Shown piece after piece: positions 8,152-39,507 of a stretch of DNA of 64,000 bases; the stretch's first letter is position 1, and every line of letters starts with the position of its first letter. A program made the position numbers and the translations under genes. The DNA is from Mugil cephalus (taxonomy: Eukaryota > Chordata > Actinopteri > Mugiliformes > Mugilidae). The notes below the pieces were generated by a model. That model ran no database searches. It saw only the letters and a program-made list of their open reading frames with translations, and was not told the origin of the DNA. The stretch spans positions 10,614,501-10,678,500 of the forward strand of contig NC_061779.1 of assembly GCF_022458985.1 (NCBI RefSeq), given 5' to 3'.

Positions 8152-11100
8152 ATGAGCGAGAGCGGAAAGCAAAAGGTAAGGCAACAATTAAACGTCGTAT
8201 AAACCTTTTAGCTTAGCAGATTCCGATTCGTTTGTTTGTAGCTTATCTGGCATCTTAGGACCCAGTCACTCAAACTGTCTCTTTCCATCCAAGGACCCTT
8301 CAGCTTTGAAGGAGGAGGGGAACAATCTTTTCAAGGCAGGAGACCTGCAGGGCGCTGTCTGCTGTTACACCAAAGCCCTAAAGCTCAGTGAGAGCCAAGC
8401 AGATAGTGCTGTTCTGTACCGCAACCGATCCGCCTGCTACCTTAAACTGGAGGACTACAGCAAGGCAGAGGCTGATGCTTCAAAAGGTCGGATGTTACTC
8501 TGTGCATTGTTCGTAACAATGTCACTGACACATTGTTTTTCCTTCCAAACTAAGTAAACTAAGCCATGGATTGTTTTGGTTGCCACAACGCACAAAAGTT
8601 AACATAAAGCATCTACATAAAGTAGCTCTTTATAATTATTAAGTAGGTACTGTAGACCAATGTCTGAATTGTTGATAAAAACAGACAAATCTGGGTATTG
8701 CTGCATGAACAGTCCCCTTCAAAGAGTTGGGAATTTGATGAACACGGGTATGATGTCCGTCTTTTTTCAGCACTTGACACTGACCCCGGTGACGTCAAAG
8801 CCAGGTTTCGGAGGGCCCAGGCTTTTCAGAAACTTGGTCGGCTTGACCAGGCTTTCCTGGATGCCCAGAGGTGCGCCCAGCTAGAACCTAAAAACAAAGC
8901 ATTCCAGGATCTACTCCGACAGCTGGGAGCACAGATCCAGCAAAAGGTGGTGTGATGTCGATGGATTAATCTTGTTTTAGTCTAAAACCGTTTTCTGATT
9001 GCAGATGCTAATTAAAGTATTGTCTCTTAACCCTTCAGTCAGCACAACTAAACTCCACGGATGCTCGTGTGCAGCAGATGTTCTCCCTGCTCTTAGATAC
9101 ATCTGCTAAAGACTCAGATCGACAGAAGGTAAAGATGGGCCATGAGTCTTATCAAATTTCTTTTATTTACTCCTGATGTTTTGATTCGGCTGTAACGCTG
9201 GAGCACCAAAATAATGCGACCCTTTATTTACTTTCAGGCTGCCCAGAATCTGGTGGTGTTATCTCGAGACGAAGCGGGAGCTGAGCAGATTTTCCGTAAC
9301 GATGGTGTGAAGCTAATTCAGAAACTTCTTCAGTCAAAGCTGGAGGAGGTTGTTCTTTCTGCTCTCAGGACATTAGTTGGGCTGTGCACAGGACATCAGT
9401 CAAGAGTAAGTGAGACACTCCCCTATAAAGTTATCCATGCCAGTCCTTTTTAATGGGCCCACATATTTAAATCAGTTGCTTTGCAGCTTTTTTTGCTGAC
9501 ACAAAGTGTTATTCTCAGGCTATGGCTATAGTAAATGAGTTGGGAATGGAGCAGCTGTGTGCGGTAATGGGAACAGCAGCCACCACTGTGTCTCTGGCCG
9601 CCTGCCACCTGCTGCAAGTGATGTTTGAGGCTCTGACGGAGGGTATGAAAAGAGAGATCAGAGGGAAAGATGAAGCCATACTTCCTGGTGAGTTTGGACA
9701 CTGAAAATGTTTATATTTAGAGATTTTTTTATGCTCTTTTTGGCACAAGGGCATCTTCTAGCTTTCTGTTCTTTTTCCATTCATTGTATGAATTTGACAC
9801 AGAACCGTCCAAGGAGCTGCGTTCAATGTTGCGCCACCTCTTGGAAATGTTGCCTGCATCTAATGTGTCAGGGCCGGGAAGAGACAGCGCCATCAACCTT
9901 CTTGTCAAACAAGTACCGCGCAAGTCCTTGAAAAACCCCGACAACTCCCTAACGTTATGGGTGATAGACCAAGGTATGTAACACACGTGCATGTAATCAT
10001 ATTTCTTTAATCATTACACATTGGTGGATATAAACAACCATATGATTCACATATCAGTGTCTTCACATTAACATGTTTTCAAGTTGTTTGCCAGACTTTT
10101 ATTTTTTGAGATAGTCGCTCCCTAATTCAGATTAATGACCTCTTTTCTGCAGGGCTAACGAAAATCCTGCAGGTTGCCGGGACCGTCCCTGAGGTCTCAG
10201 AAGGACCGCCTCTCACAGACAACACTCACATGAGCTGCTCTGTCTTGCTGAGCAAACTCTACGATGACCTAAATAGCGACAAAGAGAGGGACAACTTCCA
10301 CAAACTGTGTGAAGAATATGTCCAGTGAGTTGACCACCAAAGCTTCACATTCTTATTCCAGAGTTGCTTCCTCCTCTGCAATGTATGGGCATTGAAAATC
10401 TTTATTCAAGCCAAAGGAATCTGTGACTGATTTTGTGCTTCTCTACGAAGGCAACACTTTAGCCGACTTGGCCTGGACGCCAAGCTGCGAGCCATACAGA
10501 CGGTCTCCGTGCTCCTCCAAGGGCCGAGCGACGTTGGCAACAGAACTCTGGAAATGTCAGGAATGATGGACGCTGTGATTTCTCTGTGCGCCTCCAAAGA
10601 TGTCACTCACCAGCAGGTAGCGGTGGAGGCTCTTATTCATGCTGCGGGCAAAGCCAAGAGAGCCTCCTTCATCACAGCCAACGGCGTTGCCCTCCTCAAG
10701 GACCTCTACAAGAAGAGCGAGAATGACAGGATACGTGTGAGAGCCCTCGTGGTGAGTGCTGCAGATAGCTGGAGAAAATAACAGTTCTAAATCAAGATAA
10801 AACTGACTCTTTTGTGTGGGTTACTACACAGGGTTTGTGCAAGCTTGGATCAGCAGGGGGGACAGATTTCAGCATGAAACAGTTTGCAGAGGGCTCCACG
10901 CTTAAGCTTGCCAAGCAGTGCAGGAAGTATGTTTGCCTGTTTTGAATTTTGAACCTAGCTAGATTAAGAGAAATGTGTCATTCGTGACTAACATACTTGC
11001 ATAACATAATTTAAATCAACAGATACAGTGTATTATTGCATGAAAAACAAATAAGAGGCAAGGTCTATCTCTTTCTCTGTCTAGATGGCTATGTAATGAA

Positions 11101-13579
11101 TCTCTGCCCCCAACCTCCCGCCGCTGGTCTGTAGAAGGTCTCGCCTACCTCACCTTTGATGCTGATGTGAAGGAAGACTTGGTGGAAGACAAGAATGCTC
11201 TCTTGGCCATGTTTGAACTAGCAAAGGTTCAACTGATCACTTTATTGCTTTTATTACTACTTTAATACATACTAAGACACTTCTGAAGTGGGTTTTGATG
11301 GGATTCGAAATGTATCTGTAGTATCTATATCAATATTGCATCACACTAGGATACACTGACACTGACTTTTGTGTCTTCCTACAGTCTGAGGACAAGACTG
11401 TGCTCTTTGCTGTGGGCTCCACATTAGTGAATTGCACCAACAGCTATGAAGTGGAGAAGCCAGACCCTCAAATGGTGGAGCTGGCCAAGTATGCAAAGCA
11501 GCATGTGCCTGAGGAACACCCTAAGGTACTGTTTAAATGCTCCTTTTTTCATGTAAAGCTCACATTACAAAATGCATTGTTAAGATTGCACAGGAGTTGT
11601 AATGTCCTATTTGTAGGTGTATTTTTATACTATAAAGTGTAGCTGTTACACTTCAAACCATTTGTCTTTTTATGTCAGGATGCACCTTCCTATGTGGAAA
11701 AAAGGCTGGGGAAGCTACTGGAGGCTGGTGTGGTGTCTGCATTGGTGTGTATGGTCAAACAGGAGAGCCCTGCCCTCACCGAGGCTTGTAAGGAGTGCAT
11801 TGCCAGGTAGGGAATGTCACTAAGACTTTTCACTGACTGTTCGCCTCTGTAGATCTTTACGGCTAATGACACTTTTCACGGCAGGGTGTTCTTGGCTGTG
11901 GTGGAACGCCAGGAAGACAGAGGGACAGTGGTGGCACAGGGTGGAGGAAAGGTAGAGCGAACACTTTACTTTGCGCACTGGACCAAGCATGTCGGTTTTG
12001 GACGTTTTAAATAATTTACGCGTGCTGTTCTCTTCCTCAGGCTCTGATCCCACTTACATCTGACAACACAAATGTAGGAAAAATCAAGGCTGCACAAGCC
12101 CTGGCAAAAATAACCATCACATCCAACCCAGAGATTGCCTTTCCGGGAGAACGGGTAAGAATGCATCTATTTTTTTTTTATATATATATTTATATTTAAT
12201 ATATTATTACCTTAAACACCTGACATCAACCTGCTACTGGAGATTGTTGCCAAACAAAATTTCGTGGTAGCGTGCAATGACATTAAAGTTCCTCTATTAA
12301 TAAGCCACATCAGTTAAAAAAAATAAAAAATAACTCGTCTCGTTTAACCTTGTCTTGCATTCTGTTGTCAGATCTATGAGGTGGTGCGCCCCCTTGTCAG
12401 TCTCCTGAGTCTTGAGTGCACCCTGCTGCAGAACTTCGAGGCACTGATGGCTCTCACCAACCTGGCCGGCATCAGCGAACGACTCAGGTTGGCCACTAGG
12501 GGGCATTGTCTCCTAAGAATACGTGTACAAACAGTTCATATTATAGATTTAGGAATACATTTTTAGTTTGGCATACAAGATCAGCTTTTGTCTTCTAAAT
12601 TATTAAAGGACCATGAAAATGTTTCCACTAAAGCTGTGACTTCATTTGGTCAAATAATTTGATCATTAACTTAATTAATTAAAAATTACATGTCAAGATC
12701 TTTATGGGCACACACAGGCCATGTCGCGTTCTTTTCACATTCATTCTTTCTTTTTGATTCACAGGCAAAAGATCATAAAAGAGGAAGCTGTTCCAAAGAT
12801 TGAAGGTTACATGTTTGAGGAGCACGAACTGGTCCGAGCTTCTTCCACAGAGTGCATGTGCAATATGATTTTAAGTACAGAGGTAAGGCGCATATTACAG
12901 TAAGCAGTATCAGTCAGTGCAAAGCTGTTTAGGAAATTATTGTCTGCATGTAACCCATCAAAGTGAGAACACTTGGAGCAGTAGGCACAGCTCCTAAAGA
13001 ATCCGTAGTACAAATCTGAGGAAATGTTGGACTTTGTTGTGTCCTCAGGTGCAGAAACGGTATCTGGCCACAGGGAATGATCGGCTGAAGCTGCTCGTGC
13101 TTTACAGCGGGGAGGAGGACGAGAGGCTACGGAAAGCTGCAGCAGGAAGTCTGGCCATGCTGACCGCTGAACAGCCTGAGATCTGCGCCCGCATCCCTGA
13201 AACTGTAAGAAATCCACCAACATCACATTGAAATAATGAAACTTTTGCTATCTTTACCTCACATGGCTCCTGTTGCCTTTTTTTTTCTCAGACAACCCAC
13301 TGGCTAGAGATTTTGCAAGCATTGCTGCTATGCGAAATATCCGACCTACGTCATCGCGGAGCGGTCATCGTCCACAATATGATTCAGGCGGAGAAGAGTC
13401 TGGCTGAGACGCTCATGGAGAGTGAAGCTCTGGAGATTCTTTCTGTCCTTGCAAAGGGAGGAGAGGGCACTTCAGATCCTGTCTCCAAGGTAGCTCAGAA
13501 CTGTCTGGATAAAGCCATGGAGTACGGTATCATCAAAAGCAGGGAAGGAAAGGAAAAGAGCGAAGGAACTGAACCCTGA
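8152..13579 (+). CDS. unc45a: UNC45 myosin chaperone A
   Basis: Nineteen coding exons joined in consistent phase: 8152-8175, 8294-8486, 8771-8946, 9039-9128, 9238-9405, 9519-9687, 9803-9973, 10153-10324, 10451-10751, 10832-10926, 11085-11226, 11385-11525, 11679-11806, 11885-11951, 12041-12154, 12372-12487, 12765-12882, 13049-13204, 13292-13579. They give 942 aa, close to human UNC45A at 944. The N-terminus (about residues 9-115) is a TPR domain of three helix pairs ([56 protein letters not shown]), which binds the Hsp90/Hsp70 tail. The central and C-terminal parts are armadillo-like helices with the UCS domain (roughly 520-930), which binds the myosin motor. The family folds myosin with Hsp90 in the cytosol; UNC45A is the general form and UNC45B the muscle form. 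Neighbours man2a2 and rccd1 support A over B. Confidence 0.95.
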
Positions 13580-18247: not shown

Positions 18248-19164
18248 GTCGAACTTCTCAACTCGACAATGTCCTTTTGTTGTTGTAAACAGTTATCCAG
18301 ACACTACACTGCTGTGGCGTAAGCTGTTTTTCCGCATAGCTTTAGACTTCCGGTTTCTGGGTTAAGCGTTCGCGTGCACCGGGTTCCAGTCAATGACGTG
18401 ATAGATAGATAGCGCAAGAACACGCCTTATGTGATGCTTAAGTTTGTCTAGCATGGGTGCAGATCCCGTGGGGGACAGGGGAGGCATGTCTCCCCTATTT
18501 GTGAAAAACATTAATTGTCGCCCCCCCCCCTCCCCAATAAGACGAATGTCTTTCTGTCTTTGCCTGTTTTACTCGTTGGTATTGTGCCCAAAGTGTGGTG
18601 ATTTCCTAGAAATTTCCTCGAACGTGTCGGTGAGTGAGATAAAAGAATGTGTCACACAGAAACAGGTCATCATGTAAACATAAAATGTCCACAGTCAAAG
18701 AAAGACCTCTTTGTCCACACATTTAATGAAAGCAGTGATTGGTGTATGTTTTTTTTTGTCACACCCTTCATCCTGCTGTTGATAGAAAATGTCAATATCA
18801 AAGTGAATATCTGTCAGTTAAGCATTAAAAACGTCTCCCACGTTTAAATCAACACGAGCAAACTGCTGCAATGAAACAAGACCTCCTAAAAAATGTAAGT
18901 TGTAAACGTCGTCGTCCCCACGAGGCAGCTTCACTTCTTGCCTCAGTGTGACTTAGAGCATCAAAAGGTGAAGCCGAATAAATCCACAGTCTGCACTCTG
19001 TGGTGTCGGCAGTCTCACCATGTTAATTTGTTAAAAAATCATGATTTGCTAATACAACAGTTAAGTAAGCAGTGATACACACTGTTGGCTGTTTACAAAT
19101 AAATGATTCCCTGTGCAGTACTTTTTGAATGACATGGCGAACCTCTGTGAAGTTGTGATTTATA
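18248..19164. other. Intergenic DNA between cib1 and the titin-like gene
   Basis: The first 150 bases upstream of the cib1 start are the likely cib1 promoter. Further right I see only anonymous sequence with a C-run near 18525. No gene or RNA was recognised. Confidence 0.4.
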
Positions 19165-19375
19165 GCGGCATGGTATGAGTTGCATACTTGGCTTTTCGGG
19201 GCCTTGTATGTAAGGAGGAGGATATTAAGTTCAATTCTAGATTTTAAAGGGAGCCAATGAAGAGAAGCTAATACTGGAGTAATATGATCTCTCTTGCTAA
19301 TTCCTGTCAGTGCTCTTGCTGCAGAATTTTGAATCAATTGGAAGCTTTTTAAAGAGCTAACTTGGATAATCAGGA
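19165..19375 (-). mobile_element. LINE fragment (reverse transcriptase C-terminal region)
   Basis: Read on the minus strand, this gives FQLIQNSAARALTGISKRDH followed by ITPVLASLHWLPLKSRIELN and ILLLTYKA. This is the hallmark segment downstream of the reverse transcriptase core in fish L2/Rex1-type non-LTR retrotransposons. Only about 70 codons are recognisable; both sides are lost. The clade is not certain from so short a piece. Confidence 0.75.
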
Positions 19376-19834
19376 AAAATACCCGTAGAAATACCATACA
19401 AATCAAATCATTCAGTTGATTAAATGGCTTTAATAATGCATATTGTTATTTATGCATTTGTTACACAGCTTTTTCTCTACAGAGCTGTTGTATTTTGTTT
19501 GTATACAATCTGGTGTTGATTTTTTTTTAAATTTAGTTTTACCACAGACAGCTATGAAATAAACGATGCATTATCTTCTATAAATCACATCTGACATTCA
19601 TTATGCTCATAAATTAACCAGGATGTTAAATGTAAAAAATAAACAATTATAGCATACCTAAAAAAAAGTGCATCCTAAGCTTATATATTAAATCAAAGAG
19701 CATTATATGTAACTGATCAAATATGTATTTGAAATCAATCAACAAAATTTTTAGAACTAAATCAAAGTACTCAAAACAAAACTGAATGTGCTGTAAATCA
19801 GAAATAGATGAAAATCTTGTGATGAGTAGCGAAG

Positions 19835-19869
19835 TTAAGCTCCCGGGTTCGTCTCCCAGTCTGTCGAAT
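19835..19869 (-). other. Possible alternative 3' coding exon of the titin-like gene
   Basis: A strong acceptor (CCATTTTTATTTCAG, minus strand) precedes this block. A donor-like CAG|GTACAA lies in the last codons of the giant exon (exon end 20035). Splicing would replace the tail GTISQE with DSTDWETNPGA and a stop at 19835. Both forms end the protein at almost the same length. This is inference from splice-site shape alone. Confidence 0.3.
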
Positions 19870-20014
19870 CTGAAATAAAAATGGAGGCACATTATAATGT
19901 GTAGAACGATGTGCAGGGGAGGTTTCCATTCCTTAATACTAAACTCATACTAATAAGCTTTTTTATTTAAATACTTGTTTAACATTTATGTAAATACATA
20001 AAGCGATATTTCTT

Positions 20015-23000
20015 CTATTCCTGTGAGATTGTACCTGTCATTTTTGTTCCCTCCTTGGTCTCAGCTGGAACCCCAATGCCGTATTCGTTTTCACCTGTGA
20101 CTCTGAAGAAGTAGATTCCTCCTTCCTCCAGGTCAGACACTTTATAGGACAGTCTGCGACATTTGTCAGTAAGTCTTGTCCACCCCTTTCTGCTAATGTC
20201 CCGGATGTCTACAAGGTAGTGCTTCACAGAGGCCCCTCCCTCATTCTCAGGAATATCCCAGGTCACAGTGGCTGAGTTCTTGGTCACATCTTTTACAGTT
20301 ATATGACTTGGTGGACCAGGTGAATCCAGAACCCTCACATTCAGGGTCAAAGAGGCAGATCCAGCAACGTTTTGCAGTTTGACTGTGTATTTGCCAGAAT
20401 CATCACGTGTTGCTCGCTCCACTGTGATAGATGTGACGGAGCTGGTGGTGTTGATCAGTCCTCTGATTCTCAGATCTACATGTGCTTTGTCCCACGACAC
20501 ACTGGGAACAGGTTTACCAGTGAAAGGCACTGTCAAAGTGAAAGAGCTGCCATCTTTAACAAGTAGGGTCTTCCTCATCTCAGGGCTTACATCAAACTTG
20601 GGCGTCTCCTCTCTCTCCATGGCTACTTCAGGATCTGTTTCAGGACTGGGCTCGCTGATGCCAATCTTATTTATGGATCTGACAGTAAAAACATACTCTG
20701 TCCCCACCATGAGGCCAGTTACTGTAAACTCTGTCTTATCTGTATTATGGACACCAACAGCCCATTCTTCATCAGAAGGCTTTCTGAATTCAACTTTGTA
20801 CCCCGTAATGGCTGCTCCACCATCAAACATTGGCTTGTTCCATGACAGAGTAATGGAGGACTTGGATGAATCAACTATGGTGGGCTTTGCTGGAGGAGAA
20901 GGGAGAAACTTTGGATCCTCTGCTAGGGTTAGTGGACATGGGAGACTGGGCTCACTTAGTCCAGCAGCATTCTCCGCAAAGACTCTGAATTCATACTCAC
21001 ATCCCTCGTGTAGGCAAGATGCTTTGACTCGTAGGTCATAAACTGGTTTCTTATTGACCCTCACCCAGCGAACGCCCTGTTTTTCCCTTTTCTCTACGAT
21101 GTAACCACTAATGCGGCTACCCCCATCAGAGACGGGCCTCTTCCAGCAGACTGTCATAGCTTCAGAGGTTGCACTGGTGACTTCAACATCCATTGGAGCG
21201 GATGGTATGGTAAATGGATCCATGGCTCTGACTGGCTCACTTTCCAGTGTCTCACCCTCCCCATATTTGTTCACTGCCCTCACCCTAAACAGGTATTCAT
21301 TTCCTTTGAGCAGCTTGGTTATTTTGCAAGTAGTTGCCATCATGTCACCATACACAAGAGTCCAGGCAACACGACTGGTTTCACACTTCTCAACAATATA
21401 GTACATGATCTCTGCTCCACCAGTCTCATGAGGGGGTCCCCATGAGAGGGTGCATTTTTCTGCTGACAGTCCAGACACTTCCAGGGGTCCGGCAGGCGAA
21501 CCTGGCCTGTCCAACACTTTACAGTTGACAGCTTTAGATGTTGTACCACCTGTATTCTGCAAGGTCAGAGTATACTGTCCAGAGTCTTTCCTGACACTTT
21601 CTCTGATTAGTAGAGAGGTATGTGTCTTTGTTGCAGTTATTTCAACCCTTCCCTTGGTGCCAATATTTCTGCCATTCTTTAACCAAAACACTGTTGGGTT
21701 AGGACGGCCAGAGATGTCAGCGTCTATTCTTAGGAGGTCTCCTGCTTTGACAACCACCACCTGTCTAAATTTGTCATCCATGGTAATTTTGGGTGGCTCC
21801 ACATCATGCTGTACTGTAACAGGTCCGGTGGTTTCAGAGGGCGCACTGAAGAGCTCAGCTGCATTCTTTGCAATAACACGAAAATCATACTGTTCACCCT
21901 CCGTGAGGCCAGTCACTTCCAAGAAGGTGTCCAGTAAATTTGTGAAGTTACACTTAAGCCAGCAACTATCTGGCAGATCTTTGCGCTCAACGATGTAACC
22001 AGTTATTTTAGCCCCACCATCATATTCTGGTCTTTCCCATGAGAGTGAAACTGAAGCGTTGGTTATATTGGTGACTGTGAGGTTACTTGGGGGATCACAC
22101 TGGTCTCTCGCTGCTACAGGTTCAGATGCCTTACTGCAGGGTCCAACACCTGCTATATTCTCTGCACAGACCCGGAACTCATATATCAGACCCTCTACAA
22201 CACTTGTTATTTTGTATTGGCTCTCAGTCACTGGGCTTCTGTTTAACTTGGTCCACAGGATACTACTTTGATCTTTGCATTCAATATTATAACCAATAAC
22301 AGGGCTTCCACCATCACTGTCTGGTTTGCTCCAAGCAATGACCATTAAAGACTTTGAGGCCTGCACAACGTGGAGGTTGTTTGGAGGGCCAGGTGGCTTG
22401 AAGGGATACTGTGCAACAACAGGTGCTGTCTCAACAAAGTGACTCTTTCCATAGCGATTCTCTGCAGCAACACGAAACTGATACTCAGTGCCCTGTGTCA
22501 GACGGGAAATCTTGATTGATGTCCTTGCAACTGTAGCTGACACAGTCTGCCATATTGTGCTGCCTGTGTCTCTTTTCTCAACTACGTAATTAGTGATTTG
22601 ACATCCGCCGGTGTAATGTGGGGGCTGCCATGACAAAGACACAAAGTCGGCGCTCACATCATTCACACTGAGATCATCCGGGGGTCCAGGTCTTTCAAAA
22701 ACATTAACAGAGATCTCAGCAGATGTTGTTCCAACAACATTGGTCAGGGTCACCTCATACACACCAACATCTATCTTGGTTGCGTCTTTGATAATCATTT
22801 GAGACGACGTGTCGGATGTCTGCACATTCACTCTGCTTGTTTCTTTCAGCAAGTTTCCATCTTTTTTCCAGGCTACTGTTGGTGATGGCACACCCGTGAA
22901 TGGAACATCAATCTTCAAATCATTCCCTGCCTTCACGCTGAATGTGTTGGACAGCAGATTAATAATGGGCTCTGCACTCGTGTCCTTCACTATAACAGGT

Positions 23001-26000
23001 GTCAAAAGGGGCTTTGGTTCACTTTTTCCCCTTTCATTCACAGCACTCACTCTAAAGAAATACTCTTTTCCTTTTGTCAGCCCGTTAATAGTCACTTCTA
23101 GTGCTTTACTCTCTGAACACGCTGTCCATGACTCATCTCCTTTTAACTGCATTTCTACAATGTAACATGTGATTTTGCTCCCTCCATCATGATCAGGCTT
23201 CTCCCAAGAGAGTCTTGCGCTATTGCAAGTTACATCGGCGAGTGTGAATTTGCCAGGAGGCAGAGGAGCCTCAGACACTTTAACAGGCTCAATGGTCTCT
23301 GCTGGGAGTCCAGTGCCAAACTCATTCACAGCCAGAACACGGAAATAATAGAAACATCCTTCCTGGAGATTGTCAATCTTGTATGAATTCCTCACGCAGT
23401 TGCTACAGACGCTTGTGAATGCCTTCCTGGCTTCCTCTCGCTTTTCTACAATGTAGTGTGAAATCTTTGCTCCTCCGTCAATGAAGGGTGCCTCCCAGGA
23501 GATGGACACAGAGTCTCTCTTTACATCTTTTACAACTAGGTTTGTGGGTGCACTGGGAGAGTCCATTATTCTGACGTTGATGAATGCTGATTTGGAGCCA
23601 CAGCAGTTCTCAGCAGTCAACACATACTTTCCGGTGTCATTTCTATTGACGTTTTCAATTAGTAACACAGTGTAGGAGTTTGTTACCTCAATTTGAGCAC
23701 GCTCACTGAGAGTGCCGCCTTCCTTCAACCATTTAACTTCAGGCTCTGGCCTCCCTCTGATGGTAACAAAGAGACGTAAAGTGGAACAGGCTCGAACACT
23801 GACCATCTTCCTTAAGGCACTGTCCAGTTCAATCTCTGGTGCCTCTAATTTTTCAGCTGCTACCACACACCCAGGTAGATCCACTTGCTCTCCAACTCCA
23901 GCAGCATTCATTGCACGTATGCGAAAATTGTACAATGCATTTGTTTTGAGCCCCGTCACAGTGTAGTTTGTGTCCTCTACACATGTGCTTGGTGTGCATG
24001 TGATCCATTCATCTTCTGCTGCTTCTTTCATCTCAACTACAAATCCACTGATGGCTGCTCCGCCATCATAGATAGGCTTTGACCAAGTCAGAGACACAGT
24101 GTTGCTGGAATAGTCTGTCACTTTGGGGTTTGTAGGTGGACCAGGTGGGTAAGTAGCTTCACATACTTTTATATACTCGCTTGGCTCACTGGGTGCACCC
24201 ACACCAGCTGCATTTTCTGCAAGTACTCTAAACTGATAGTAATGTCCTTCTGCGAGACCTGTGCATCGGAAACGTAAGTCGTTCAGTCTTCTCTTGTTGC
24301 ACTTAGTCCATCTGACACCCTCTTTGTCACGTTTCTCCACGATGAAGCCATCGATCTCTGAGCCTCCATCTGTCTCAGGCCTTTCCCATGTTAGCACTAA
24401 AGAGTCACCTGTCACAGCGCTGACTACAGGGGTAGAAGGTGCACTAGGTGTTGTGAAAGGATTTTGTGCAACAAAGGGCTCTGATTCCAGAAATTCACCA
24501 ACGCCAAATTTATTCACGGCAGCAACCCTGAATATATATTCTTTGCCAGGAACCAGTTTCGTCACTTTGTAACTGACGGCTTCAACGTGAGGGTCCACAC
24601 CTGTCCATGTTACACGACTGGTCTCCCTTTTTTCAATGATGAAGTGGGTAACGCTGGCGCCTCCGTCATTTACAGGCGGGTTCCAGTGAAGGTTGCACTT
24701 TTCTGCGCTGACAACTTTCACTTTGAGTTCTCCATCTGGAGGACCGGGTCTATCCAGGACCTTCACATTAACTGGAACCGATGTCGTTCCACCAGTGTTA
24801 CTGAGGCTTAAAACAAAGCGCCCCCCATCCACTCGTGTACAGTCTCTGACAGTCAGAGTTGTATGAGTGAGGGTATTTTTGAGCTCCGTCCTCGGTGTAA
24901 CTTTGTCAATTTCTCTACCATCTTTCAGCCATGTAACCTCAGGCAGGGGTTTCCCAAAGTAATCAGCATCAATAACAAATGTCTCTCCAGCCTGAACAAC
25001 AATAGTACTCTTGAACTTTTGATCAATGACTGCGGTGGGCCCCTCAATAACATCCTGAGCAATGATGGTTACACTTTCTGAAGGTGTGCTCCAAACACCA
25101 GCACCATTCTTAGCAGTTACTCTAAATTCATAACTTTCTCCTCCAGTCAGACCCGTGACCGTGAAAACATTCTCTATAACATTCGTAAAGTTTGCCTTCA
25201 TCCATCTGCCACCTGGAAGCTCCTTCTTTTCAACAACATACCCTGTAATGGTGCTTCCACCATCATACTTGGGTTTTTCCCACTGAAGTGTGATGTTTTC
25301 TCTAGTAATGACAACGGCCTCAGGCTTACCAGGTGGATCACAGGGGTCTCTTGCTACATAGCATTCAGATATCTTGCTAGGTGGGCTGAGTCCAGCGATA
25401 TTTTCAGCAAAAGCTCTGAATTCGTACTCAATGCCTTCCTCTAGTCCACTTGTTTTGAAGCGAGCGTCAGTTATAGCAAACTTGTTTAGCTTGGTCCACA
25501 AAATGCTGTTCTTCTCTTTACGTTCAAGATGATAGCCAGTGATGGGGCTCCCTCCATCCCTGACTGGAGGCTCCCACTCAACTACCATGCTGTACTTTGT
25601 CACAGTGGACACAACCGGGGTGCCAGGAGCAGCCGGCACAGTAAATGGAAACTGTGCTGTTACAATAGGAGAGGTGATTGCTGTACTTTTTCCATACCTA
25701 TTTTCTGCAAACACTCTGAATTGATATTCGCTTCCTGTCTTCAGCTTGGTAGCTTTGATTGTTGTTCTTACTGTTGTTGCCGACACGGTTTGCCATTCTG
25801 TGTTTGTAGTTTCCCGTTTCTCCACCACATAGTTGTCGAGCTGACAGCCTCCTGTGTATTCAGGTGGCTCCCAAGAGAGGATTGCGTAGTCAGAACTGAC
25901 CTCATCAATCCTCACGGGCCCTGTGGGTGGGTCCGGTTTTTCAAGAGCAACAACAGTGATTTCTCCTGTGTATTGACCAGCACTGTTGCTAGCTATGATT

Positions 26001-27313
26001 GAGTATTGACCGGAGTGCTCCCTGGCAGCGTGTCTGATATGAAGGACTGTTAATGAGGCTGTAGTTAAAACCATTAGCCTTGATGTCTCTTTAACTGCTT
26101 GACCATCTTTTTTCCATTCAATCTTTGGGGCTGGGCGCCCAGCCACTGGGATCTCTACTTTGAGTTCTTCACCATTTTTGACAGTGAATGTGTTAAAAGT
26201 TATCTGGAGATTTGGCTTTATAGCATTTTCATTGTCTGTGGGCGCAGGTTGGGTCCGAGGGTTGGGTTCGACATTTTCTGGTTCTCCTAGAATGAGGTAA
26301 GACAGTTAAACAAGCGAATCATTTCACTGAGTCACAGTTTAATATGCATTACAGTGGCAATAAATATGTTTCTCCTATCACGAGAAATATGGCATACTCT
26401 ACATATTAGGTAGAGCAAACAATATATCTGCCATGTTTCCTTCTTTTCAGTATTTTGACAATATTAAAGAGATAGTCCTGAAGATATTGTGCAAGTCCTT
26501 GCATTTACAGTATTATGACCTGATTTTCTCATGTAAAATCAGCAACGAAAAGCAACTAAGGAATGTCACTTTAATGTCACTTTAAAGAATGCCGTGAGTC
26601 TGTGTCTTAAACCAGAACATTTTATGTGGGAGCATGAAATCTGATTCTAGACTAAGCAGCGTTGTTTCAGAGTGATGGGAAGCCTACCTTGGACAATGAG
26701 CGAGCGGGATGACTGGGAAATCTCTGCTCTGAGCTCTGCATCAGTGTCCTGTGTCACATTTATATTTAGAGTGTGAGCATTATCCCCTGTTTTCATTCCC
26801 ATCTATGAGGACAGATGGTATCAAAAAAGAAATGAGATTAAAGATGAGCAAATACTAAAACAGGGAACGTTTTTTTTTATCCTTTATATTCTTAGACTCT
26901 GTAATCTTGTTTGGTCATTGAGAAGTACACAATAGCTTTATCTTCATATTAAAATTAAATGTTAGATTTTAACAGAACAAAACTGTTTAATAAGTTTGTA
27001 GGCAAGTGAGTGTTATGTGTTAGTAATAGAAACTCTTGATGGTGTTAAAAATACATTTGTAACTAGAGGCAGGGTGGACAAGGCTACCATCTGTCAAACA
27101 GAAGAAAGTCTATTATTATCTAACTCTTAAAGTTCTCATTAAATATTTAACTTCAGTAACAGTTCACTACACAAAAAAAAATCCCTAAACTAAAAGTTAA
27201 TGAAGGCAATTATTCAATTCTCTAAATTCTCTCAGTTCTATATTAAAATTACTTTGATAACCTATGATAGTAAATCATTTTCAAACACTTACTTCATTAT
27301 TGCCGTTTTCCAT
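20015..27313 (-). CDS. Titin-like protein made of two A-band C-zone super-repeats
   Basis: Three coding exons: 27293-27313 (MENGNNE), 26688-26802 and a giant exon 20015-26286, giving about 2135 aa with no break. Residues 1-69 are unique and polar, with no signal peptide. Then come 21 domains of about 100 residues. In order (I = immunoglobulin, F = fibronectin III): IFFF-IFFF-IFF, IFFF-IFFF-IF. That is the 11-domain order of titin C-zone super-repeats, one complete and one short of its last F. Domain joints are titin-like (VLDRPGPP, ARDPCDPP, VAQYPF). F domains carry the SLSWxxPxxDGGxxIxGYxVEKR and YxFRVxAxNxxG signatures. In titin these repeats lie along the thick filament and bind myosin and MyBP-C. 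A sarcomeric role here is inference. No kinase, PEVK or Z-disc part is present. Not titin itself, which is far longer; IGFN1 and MyBP families lack this order. Confidence 0.9.
20035..22968 (-). repeat. Titin-type super-repeat 2 (10 of 11 domains)
   Basis: About 978 codons, encoding I-F-F-F-I-F-F-F-I-F. It aligns with super-repeat 1 from its first I domain (LKETSR shared as VKETSR) to the tenth domain (IGVPAETKEGTKMT against TGLPAETIEPVKVS). It then stops where repeat 1 goes on into its eleventh domain. The missing piece is one F domain, about 100 residues. Confidence 0.85.
22969..26217 (-). repeat. Titin-type super-repeat 1 (11 domains)
   Basis: About 1083 codons, encoding I-F-F-F-I-F-F-F-I-F-F. 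Each domain is most like the domain 11 places later, not its direct neighbour. For example F1 has PEYTGGCQLDNYVVEKRE and F9 has PHYTGGCQITNYVVEKRD; F2 has NSILWTKLNK and F10 has SSILWTKLNR. This shows the unit of descent is the 11-domain block. Confidence 0.85.
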
Positions 27314-28395
27314 CCTGTCTCTTCCTTGAAATAATATATGAGAAATGAGTGTGAACTCAAAATGCAGCTTGCTCCGTAAGTCAACGCTGTGGTCTCTCTA
27401 AAGTCTAGAGCAGACATGCAGCTCTGCCAATCACTGCCTGCTTTATCTCCAAAGGCATGCAGTGACTAAAATAAGCTGGCACCGGAGTGGCCAGCTGCTC
27501 ATACTTTCAAAATTAGCTTAGCTTAGATGGGTCAACAAGGAAAAGGTGGAGAAACTGCTCAACAGTTAAATATTGTGCACCTTCTACTCCTGTTACAAAG
27601 TGGTTTACTGTGACAGTTTAGATATTCTCTAATTTTGTGAGTGTGGGTTTGAGGATCATCACTGGAGTAAGTGACAACGCAAAAGGAAGTTCTGAAAAAA
27701 TAATCAGCCAGAAAAAAGAGGAGGAAATCGTTTTTAAAATAATAATAAAAAAAATGAAATGCAATTATGATAATATTAATAAATAAAACGCAGCAGTGAA
27801 ATCGATCCCGAGGAACTTTTATTCTGAAAAATATTACCGGAAACACCAACGAAGAAGAAGACGAACAAGGAAGTTGGCCACTAGTCGTGCGAACCGGTTG
27901 AAAAGGAAAGGAAAGGTATGAGTGATTATGGATAGATATACGCGGTCTTAGATAATGTGCATTGTTTTAAAAATACATCTGATCTGTTGGTTTCAAGACG
28001 CTGAGTTCGTCCTGGTGTCAGAATAAAAAGGTGGGATTACGAATCAGTGTTTGTGCCACGAACAACCATTCAATGAAACTGGCATTGGTGTTTTTTTAGT
28101 GAAGTGTGTTGTTGTATTAAGCTTATATATGCTCTAATATCAATTTACTGCCAGTTAATTAATCACTTAATCACTCACATATCAAAATTACACCCGTTTT
28201 AGTTTCCAAATGTGAATGATTTCTGTTTTTCATGACTCATATCATAGTTTGATTTACTATTATTGAGTTGAATAATTCTTAACCTGTCTAATTTCTGACC
28301 AGTTTCCGAATAATGAACTAACCATTTCCCTGGTTCTGTGTACGACAGGACGATGCCTTACTGACCAGTTTCACTGGTAACAAACCGATCCAACC
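27314..28395. promoter_or_regulatory. Divergent promoter region of the titin-like gene and gdpgp1, with gdpgp1 5' UTR exon
   Basis: The two genes point away from each other. A gdpgp1 non-coding exon probably ends at 27915 (GAAAG|GTATGAG) and resumes at 28349 (TACGACAG|GACG). On the titin-like side lie a near-consensus MEF2 site (CTAAAATAAG, 27466-27475, one mismatch) and an E-box CAGCTG at 27492-27497, as expected for a muscle gene but too short to be proof. A four-codon upstream ORF sits at 28353-28364. Confidence 0.4.
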
Positions 28396-29493
28396 ATGCC
28401 ACTGCAGTTTGTGTACAGCCACCAGGACTTTGTCACAGATCTCTGTCGGAGTGGTGGAGACTGTACCGAGACGGCAGGGGCCCCAGCAAAGTTCGACACC
28501 ACCATCCAAGCCGGCTGGACGGACAGGATGGACAGGGGACTCTTCCGCTACCACCTGGGTGATTTACGGACTCGTATCCTGCCCGGCCCTCGTGGTTATG
28601 TGGCTCAGCTGAATGTTCAAAGAGGGATCGAGAGAAGAAAGCCTGAGGAGATACTGAGCATTCGGCAGCAGTTCAATGCCAGGCAGTTTAATTTTAACAA
28701 AATCAATCCAGATGAAGTTATATGTGAGATGATGAAGGACTCGGAGGGGGACGGAGCTTTGCCTGACAATGGAGAGGTGCCTCGGCCCTGCAGGATGGTC
28801 GTACTGGTCAACGTAAGCCCTTTAGAGTTTGGACATTGTCTCCTTGTTCCCGATCCTTCACGCTGCTTCCCACAGATCCTGACCAGGTTCGCCATCCAGG
28901 TCGGTATTGAATCTGTGCTCCTGAGCTCCGACCCTGGTTTTCGTGTGGGGTTCAACAGCCTTGGAGCATTTGCATCAGTGAACCATTTGCACCTTCATGG
29001 ATATTACCTAGACCGTGACCTCAAGGTAGAATCTGCTCCAGTCAAGCCTTTGGTTCCTGAAAAGGGATTTCATCGCATGCTGGACTTTCCCGCAGGTTTT
29101 TTGTTCTACACAGAATCAGAGGACGTGGGGAAAGTGGCAGGAGCCATCTGCCAAGTCACAGACTTTTTTGTGGACGGTAACATTGCCCACAACCTGTTCT
29201 TGACTAGAGGATGTCCACCGTGTGGTCGCACGCAGAGTGAAAGTGATCGCTGCTCGAGAAAAGGTGTGCGTGTCGCTATATGGCCAAGAACATCCTGCTT
29301 CGGTGCCAAAGAGGAATCTGCCTTCAACGTCGCCCTTTGTGAGCTGGCCGGACATTTACCGTTTAAGAACGAGAAGGACTTTGAGCTGGCTACAGAGAAA
29401 GATGTCGTCGATGTAATACAGAAATATCTTCTGCCAGAGGATGAGTTTAACAGGTTGGAACAGCAGCTAACAGATCATTTGACGAGTTTATAA
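28396..29493 (+). CDS. gdpgp1: GDP-D-glucose phosphorylase 1
   Basis: Intronless CDS of 365 aa (human 385), starting in a good context (CCAACCATGC). The sequence opens MPLQFVYSHQDFVTDLC and includes LPGPRGYVAQLNVQRGIERR, the conserved segment of VTC2-like phosphorylases. The histidine-triad-type motif NHLHLHGYYL lies at residues 196-205, and its middle histidine (H199) should be the nucleotidyl-accepting residue. The enzyme hydrolyses GDP-D-glucose by phosphorolysis, clearing a wrong product of GDP-mannose metabolism in the cytosol (family knowledge). A likely poly(A) signal AATAAA is at 29804-29809, with a nearer ATTAAA near 29588. It sits beside cib1 in human; here the titin-like gene comes between them. 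Confidence 0.95.
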   Translation: MPLQFVYSHQDFVTDLCRSGGDCTETAGAPAKFDTTIQAGWTDRMDRGLFRYHLGDLRTRILPGPRGYVAQLNVQRGIERRKPEEILSIRQQFNARQFNFNKINPDEVICEMMKDSEGDGALPDNGEVPRPCRMVVLVNVSPLEFGHCLLVPDPSRCFPQILTRFAIQVGIESVLLSSDPGFRVGFNSLGAFASVNHLHLHGYYLDRDLKVESAPVKPLVPEKGFHRMLDFPAGFLFYTESEDVGKVAGAICQVTDFFVDGNIAHNLFLTRGCPPCGRTQSESDRCSRKGVRVAIWPRTSCFGAKEESAFNVALCELAGHLPFKNEKDFELATEKDVVDVIQKYLLPEDEFNRLEQQLTDHLTSL

Positions 29494-32159: not shown

Positions 32160-33744
32160 ATAAAAATAATCTACCTCCTCTAATTTGTTTCTCATGGGTG
32201 GCACTAATATTCTTCCATACATTTGTCTGTCACTTAATCATCACAGCTTCACCAGGAAGTCACAGCACATGACATGATTTACAAGCATCTGTGTTTTCTC
32301 AGGACCTGCATATTTACCTTTTGTGGAAGGACATTCAAGTACAGGACAAGTAGGTCTGGATCGTCATGTGCGTGTGTATGTTCACCTTTCTTTTTTTCCA
32401 CTGTGAACGTTACAAACTCAAAGATGAAAGTTTACACAAGGAGTTATGGACAGTTAGGGTCCCACTGGCGTTGTATGCACACACGAAGAAGGTGGAGCCA
32501 ACAAGCAATTAACCCTATGGCATTATATATAATTATTATAACAATATAATTGTTGTCTGTCATCTGCATAAAATGTTGATTTCTTTAACTCTTTTATTTT
32601 TGTTCTCAATAAACACACGATTGGCTGTGAAGTGGTTTTTGTTGTTTGGACAGAGTCTGGCTGTGTTCCCACCTTTAGGCCAAACTGGCTCTCCCTGAGG
32701 CGGGTTTACTGTACAGACAACAGTGTCAACAGTGGGCTGACTCTCAGAACACATAGATTTTCATGAAGTGCACTAGTCCTTTAAAGATCCACTCTTTCCC
32801 ATGCCAAAAAAAAAAAAAAATAACAAAAACAAAACAGCTCTTTGTGTATGAAACACACTGATATGCGCAATCTTAATCTCAATCTGCTGAATCACGGCAT
32901 TTAGTTTCAGTTCGACAAATATTAATTGTGCATTTTATTGCTTACTTTGTTGGTCGCAGTTTTTCAGTCATGAAAATTCAAAGCAAATGTTGTTATATAA
33001 CTGTTTTCCTGTACATAAGAAATAGCCTTTTTTCCCCCCTATCTATTATTTATACTGGACGTTGGCCTTAACCTTGAACCTGTGTTGGCTGACTGAGTCA
33101 AACCTGTCATGCATCTTTCTAATGGGGCCCAGCATGGATACACATTATTTACAGTTAATGCTTCACAGGAGATGTGACCGTCCTCCGCCCCCACCCCGAC
33201 TCCCTGATGTGAGACGAGCCACACGTGTTTCACAGAAATTACATGTGAAAAGTGTTTGTATTCAGGGAGGAGGAGGCTTCAGGAACATTTCAAAGGGAAC
33301 ATTCTCTGCAGTCGGTGGTTTACTGTGTGTAACTTAAGCATAAAGGACAACCTAGACAATCTGTCTGCAAGTTGTCCCCGTTAATGTCACGTCTCTCCTG
33401 TTTGATCCGGACACGCAGCACGGTTCCTCGCATCACGGCTCCCACGTAGCAGTAGAAATTTTATGTATTGTGTTATGTCAAAGCTGTTCAAATAAAAACA
33501 ATTAAACGATGATAACAGAATTAAGAGATCCAAATATCAATCAAACACATGTCACATCACCTCAAACATGTCTGGTACTTTCCATGTGTAGTGTGAAGGG
33601 AGTGGCCGTGGGAGTGTCCTCAACATAGTCCATTATCTCCGAGCGTGAGATGCTCAGGCCTTTAAAGCTCTGTCACTTTTGCCGAGGGCAGCTCAGGTGA
33701 TTAATTCAAACAGTTTAGAGACTCTTTAGAGTGACCAGTAAACA
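32160..33744. other. Intergenic DNA upstream of rhcg
   Basis: No gene is recognised. A poly-A run lies at 32806-32820. The last 150 bases before 33745 (with CCTTTAAAGC near 33659) are the probable rhcg promoter and 5' UTR. Confidence 0.4.

Positions 33745-39507
<5,763 letters not shown>

Follow-up and report, generated by a model that had tools for sequence, protein, structure and literature searches.

A partial titin paralogue of about two C-zone super-repeats in the fish Mugil cephalus

The A-band part of titin (connectin; TTN, and in teleosts ttn.1 and ttn.2) has been proposed as a ruler of the muscle thick filament because its super-repeats match the 43-nm stripe, and in humans the C-zone is encoded within one giant exon. 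Smaller titin-like Ig/Fn3 proteins, the mini-titins twitchin and projectin, are known from invertebrates, where they carry a kinase and have a separate origin. In the portions of the published sources that are drawn on throughout this work, the canonical C-zone super-repeat is given as Ig-(Fn3)2-Ig-(Fn3)3-Ig-(Fn3)3 (I-FF-I-FFF-I-FFF), repeated 11 times over (PMC10862085), and teleosts are described as having two connectin genes close together on one HOXD chromosome with no surviving ohnologue (PMC12198301). Here we describe a gene in a 64-kb stretch of Mugil cephalus DNA (the window; contig NC_061779.1, positions 10,614,501 to 10,678,500) that, judged by its sequence, is a real, intact and partial titin paralogue. 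It spans 20015-27313 on the minus strand; all positions are given within the window.

The structure of the gene is intact, with two short predicted 5' exons followed by one 6.27-kb open exon. Predicted exon 1 (27293-27313) holds the ATG at 27313, 7 codons and a GTAAGT donor; predicted exon 2 (26688-26802) encodes part of an N-terminal tail without a recognised relative; and exon 3 (20015-26286) is a single open exon that carries all 21 domains and ends in a TAG stop at 20017-20015. The frame is open from 26305 to this sole stop over 6291 nt, with the listed open reading frame (ORF) at 20015-26146, and a frame of this length has a chance of about 10^-54 at the base composition of the window. 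Splice sites were sought in a small grid round hand-picked candidates, where a single combination has GT/AG at all four sites; the ATG is then in frame, and the spliced model encodes a product of 2135 aa and 234 kDa. The nearest in-frame stop upstream of the ATG is at 27398, and none of the 20 upstream codons checked is an in-frame ATG. About 50 bases beyond the stop lies a candidate polyadenylation signal, AATAAA (19962-19967). The N-terminal tail (about 66-71 aa, 26688-27313, ahead of the first Ig domain) gave no Pfam match better than E 0.08. We also noted a possible splice donor, CAG/GTACAA, at 20034 on the same strand, 17 bases ahead of the stop, so that an extra 3' exon is conceivable. 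An earlier reading of this DNA from its letters only (the sequence-only reading) had described a stand-alone coding gene with its own start and stop, and the open frame, the in-frame splice model and the 21-domain parse bear this out.

The frame is also likely to be under purifying selection. In a simulation of neutral change by random substitution, half of it transitions, with 100 runs per level, protein change of 10, 20 and 30% produced a mean of 10.6, 20.6 and 31.2 stops, with minima of 4, 10 and 19. The gene has no internal stop, against a simulated mean of 31.2, and this simulation is the support for the earlier claim of a frame under selection.

Comparison with known structures places the origin of the gene in titin. 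A search of the PDB returned one titin match, scoring 1586 bits, in which residues 313-1390 of the product align with all 1079 residues of chain 8q6t_I; the portion of the alignment shown contains one gap, of a single residue. Myomesin-1 scored 106 bits. Titin thus stands above the other Ig/Fn3 proteins of known structure and matches domain by domain; IGFN1 and obscurin were not searched by name. Myosin-binding protein C (MyBP-C), which is likewise an Ig/Fn3 rod of the thick filament, was the top non-titin match, but we rejected it as the identity of the gene, given 233 bits versus 1586 for titin and 21 domains in titin order. The mini-titins resemble the product in being smaller titin-like Ig/Fn3 proteins, yet twitchin scored only 58 bits.

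Pfam identified 15 fn3 and 6 I-set stretches in exon 3, and a parse based on start motifs picked by eye ordered the 21 domains as I-FFF-I-FFF-I-FF / I-FFF-I-FFF-I-F, in agreement with the order given by the sequence-only reading. This is the 11-domain super-repeat order of titin in rotated form, and, as in the human C-zone, it is encoded in one long intron-free exon. Mean identity to human titin super-repeat 4 is 53.9% in phase versus 27.6-36.3% at the ten other phases, and the in-phase domain of that super-repeat is the best match for 19 of the 21 domains, the exceptions being F19 and I20. The gene begins with super-repeat domain 4 and ends with domain 2 of a third repeat (8+11+2 domains), so that the earlier description of two super-repeats holds for length and fails for phase: these are not two whole repeats.

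The gene differs from titin in several respects. With 21 domains and 234 kDa, its product is too short to span a half sarcomere, and no Z-disk, I-band or M-band Ig domains accompany it; in a scan of the window's stop-to-stop frames of at least 20 aa with hidden Markov models built from its own domains, no further frame was Ig/Fn3-like. No kinase is present among the Pfam matches to exon 3, and no search of the window was aimed at a PEVK spring or titin kinase. Unlike the teleost titins, the gene is flanked by cib1-like and gdpgp1-like ORFs. It also differs from Cronos, a ttn.2 product that retains the M-band, in being a separate gene without M-band domains.

To locate the source within titin, we used two chains whose placement on the super-repeats is a derivation of this analysis. 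Human chain 8g4l_bm is identical letter for letter to the A77-A78 structure 3lpw where both are shown and contains Fn3-71, and mouse chain 8q6t_I contains Fn3-87 (sequences of both Fn3 domains from PMC3541999, Table 1). Fn3-85 (8OT5) occupies position 6 of super-repeat 6, and Fn3-90 (8OTY) occupies position 2 of super-repeat 7 (PMC10862085). From the 3lpw match, the Fn3 numbering at eight Fn3 per super-repeat and these two places, 8g4l_bm is super-repeat 4; by the same numbering and places, 8q6t_I begins at domain 7 of super-repeat 6 and ends at domain 6 of super-repeat 7. The 11 gene domains that run in order with the mouse chain, F4-F14, are 62.6% identical to it (672/1073) versus 56.9% (612/1075) for human super-repeat 4, with mouse higher in 10 of the 11 domains and F4 equal. 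This preference for super-repeats 6-7 makes one contiguous slice the simplest reading, and the sequence, which best fits super-repeats 6-8, supports a source that starts at domain 4 of super-repeat 6 and stops at domain 2 of super-repeat 8, approximately A101-A121 (numbered with A77-A78 and with A147, domain 6 of super-repeat 10, as fixed points; PMC10665186).

Several observations argue against a single slice from this region. The alignment score of F4 slightly favors human super-repeat 4, and F3 is no closer to super-repeat 6 (62.5% to human Fn3-85) than to super-repeat 4 (64.6%). F17 is most like zebrafish Fn3-79 (65.5%), in a comparison that did not contain Fn3-95, the domain expected by contiguity. 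F18-F21 are just 36-53% identical to either reference, neither of which is their in-order counterpart. Preference among the 10 domains outside F4-F14 is mixed, with 4 closer to mouse, 4 closer to human and 2 equal.

The two halves of the gene are 46.2% identical to each other (453/980). Half 1 is 62.6% identical to the mouse chain (597/954) and 57.6% to human super-repeat 4 (619/1074), half 2 is 49.9% identical to human super-repeat 4 (488/978) and 48.5% to the mouse chain (416/858), and the human and mouse references share 65.1% (619/951). Because the halves fall below all five of these half-titin and titin-titin comparisons (48.5-65.1%), an internal tandem duplication was rejected. Its halves are different titin repeats and not duplicates of each other.

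Phylogenetic analysis suggests that the copy is younger than the split between ray-finned fish and tetrapods and has evolved faster since. A tree of 23 Fn3 rows covered two of the 21 gene domains, F6 (84 residues) and F17, and the clades for tests were named after the tree was seen. F6, whose closest titin domain is Fn3-87 and which is the only domain for which the zebrafish counterpart is informative, groups with the zebrafish Fn3-87 with support of 92/90; forcing the Fn3-87 of human, mouse and zebrafish into a group that excludes F6 lowered the log likelihood by 6.8 (approximately unbiased [AU] test, p 0.0185). The F6 branch has 0.38 changes per site versus 0.06 for zebrafish titin. This tree disfavors a copying event before fish and tetrapods split, on the basis of one 84-aa domain and with zebrafish Fn3-71 and -79 misplaced. 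In the same tree, zebrafish Fn3-63, -103 and -119 each join their human and mouse counterparts and zebrafish Fn3-71 and -79 do not, such that 3 of the 6 known C-zone orthologue groups were recovered; F17 has no clear place, its pairing with zebrafish Fn3-79 not being rejected by the AU test (p 0.331). Both points tell against the dating and the slice, and the misplaced zebrafish domains leave the placement of F6 only suggestive. The AU test likewise does not reject uniting Fn3-79 across zebrafish, human and mouse (p 0.133). A single clade of F6 and F17 was disfavored (AU p 0.0121).

What the product might do is suggested by the titin surfaces that it retains. In the relaxed mouse cardiac thick filament, the S2 of crown 2 is contacted by titin domains 4-8, and the free head of that crown is held by domain 6; C7-C10 of MyBP-C is located where super-repeats meet, and no direct contact with titin was seen there (PMC10665186). 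According to another view, which PMC12294915 cites, C8-C10 of MyBP-C sits on Fn10, Fn11 and Ig1 of titin. The slice retains the domain 4-8 module twice and the domain 10-11-1 interface twice. Identity to the mouse chain is 60-68% in the first interface (F7, F8, I9) and 38-49% in the second (F18, F19, I20), which does not run in order with that chain. From these modules and interfaces we infer docking on myosin tails. By analogy with titin, the role of a mini-ruler or of a MyBP-C or myosin binder, which the sequence-only reading proposed, is plausible.

We therefore consider the following course of events. A contiguous piece of the titin C-zone (approximately A101-A121) would have been copied between a cib1-like and a gdpgp1-like gene, probably within ray-finned fish, and would then have acquired a start and two small exons at its 5' end and been retained as a protein-coding gene. 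Its product would be a 21-domain, 234-kDa rod about two 43-nm repeats long, which may dock on striated-muscle myosin tails through the domain 4-8 and inter-repeat surfaces used by titin. The rod would not span the sarcomere but could sit beside titin chains or replace them and tune MyBP-C sites and the heads of crown 2. In our estimate there is an even chance that this reading is right, in which a partial titin paralogue encodes a rod that binds thick filaments, with an expression, location and function that we infer. More tentatively, and with a probability that we would put well below even, a free-standing two-repeat C-zone protein of fish may load in register with the 43-nm stripes, compete with or supplement titin, and alter, in some muscles, the occupancy of myosin crown 2 and of MyBP-C.

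One alternative keeps the same gene and origin but places the product outside the sarcomere, either binding non-muscle myosin or serving as a general Ig/Fn3 scaffold, or broadly expressed under a promoter that the gene shares head-to-head with its gdpgp1-like neighbor. About 1.1 kb separates the start codon from an ORF on the opposite strand (28396-29490) that we take, from an HLHLH motif, to be gdpgp1; Pfam gave no confirmation, with no match at 0.001 and none meaningful at 10. Neither a MEF2 nor a CArG match occurs in the 587 bp upstream of the gene, and E-boxes number 1 there versus 2.1 in shuffles, so that the promoter lends no support to muscle expression, a point that counts against a thick-filament rod. 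In addition, an antibody to the titin A-band labels the centrioles and the cytoplasm of non-muscle cells, including those of zebrafish (PMC3541999). However, the known partners of the retained domains are muscle thick-filament proteins, and intron 1 contains 4 E-boxes and, counting both strands, 2 MEF2-pattern matches that may be a single site; these counts come without a chance control. We regard a product outside the sarcomere as possible, at roughly one chance in a handful or slightly better.

It is improbable that the gene is instead a decaying titin copy, that is, a young pseudogene or truncated fragment whose stop and 3' end come from transposon debris. The 3' flank at 19.0-19.9 kb is transposon-rich by eye, the stop lies 17 bases beyond the possible donor at 20034, and the C-terminal domains are the most diverged. 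Yet 31 stops would be expected at 30% neutral change where none is observed, 19 of 21 domains are in register, and Pfam still finds F19 (E 4e-19), I20 (E 4.8e-15) and F21 (E 4.5e-13). An assembly artefact that misplaced part of the real titin locus is very improbable, given that the gene has a predicted start, introns, a stop and a poly(A) signal of its own, that the titin chain runs on beyond the counterpart of F21, and that the F6 branch (0.38 versus 0.06) would be fast for titin itself.

The individual domains of the intact paralogue were parsed on the minus strand as follows. The first, partial super-repeat comprises I1 (domain 4, 25943-26224), F2 (domain 5, 25652-25942), F3 (domain 6, 25349-25651), F4 (domain 7, 25055-25348), I5 (domain 8, 24755-25054), F6 (domain 9, 24464-24754), F7 (domain 10, 24161-24463) and F8 (domain 11, 23855-24160). 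The next begins with I9 (domain 1, 23564-23854) and continues with F10 (domain 2, 23273-23563), F11 (domain 3, 22985-23272), I12 (domain 4, 22697-22984), F13 (domain 5, 22409-22696), F14 (domain 6, 22106-22408), F15 (domain 7, 21809-22105), I16 (domain 8, 21512-21808), F17 (domain 9, 21221-21511), F18 (domain 10, 20918-21220) and the diverged F19 (domain 11, 20618-20917). The third consists of the diverged I20 (domain 1, 20327-20617) and of F21 (domain 2) with a short C-terminal tail (20018-20326). A Trp and a Tyr-corner motif are present in all 15 Fn3 domains (YEFRA in F3, YVFTV in F19), and a Trp and a D.G.Y-like motif are present in all 6 Ig domains; the DGG-type motif was missed in F21. 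Net charge per domain has no clear pattern. An AlphaFold model of F19-I20-F21, built from a two-row alignment, gave mostly pLDDT (predicted local distance difference test) values above 70 for the Fn3 ends and values below 50 for I20.

Around the gene, an EF-hand ORF at 17003-17314 matches CIB1 structures only (3 of 3 matches, best 1.3e-14), which supports cib1 as a neighbor. Just 3' of the gene, an ORF at 19026-19445 on the minus strand, without a Pfam match, presumably resembles the C-terminal end of a fish LINE (long interspersed nuclear element) reverse transcriptase, and 19820-19880 resembles by eye the box B of a tRNA-derived SINE (short interspersed nuclear element). Past the cib1-like gene lie exons on the plus strand (8192-13576) resembling UNC45, a myosin chaperone, with Pfam matches to TPR (8192-8554) and UNC45-central (10431-10778) and the rest recognised by eye. 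On the other side, Rh/ammonium-transporter-like exons (33742-37585, plus strand) have a Pfam match at 36090-36392 and none at 33742-33969, the rest again being recognised by eye.

The sequence-only reading knew of no vertebrate protein of this make-up that had been described. In the open-licence literature, judged mostly from titles and the starts of abstracts among the matches listed, we found no description of such a partial titin gene, which is in line with that reading without settling the matter. The sections of PMC12198301 covered do not mention a partial titin gene elsewhere, and of the fish "TTN-like" or "titin-like" reports, as far as their covered parts go, one was a bare table row with a titin accession and the other a full-length titin transcript, neither being such a gene. 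Among 2 pattern matches in viral contigs and 16 in prokaryote genomes, no relative was confirmed, as expected.

The gene would add a titin-derived member to the account, in the covered part of PMC12198301, of two neighboring teleost titins with no surviving ohnologue. What a local repeat contributes is difficult to tell apart from the rest of the giant titin chain, and a gene of about two repeats alone would permit such a test in fish. If our reading is true, it would be a natural test of which parts of titin's ruler and motor-parking role reside in single super-repeats. Fish, as this sequence suggests, may produce a small protein resembling titin that could dock on the thick filaments of muscle.

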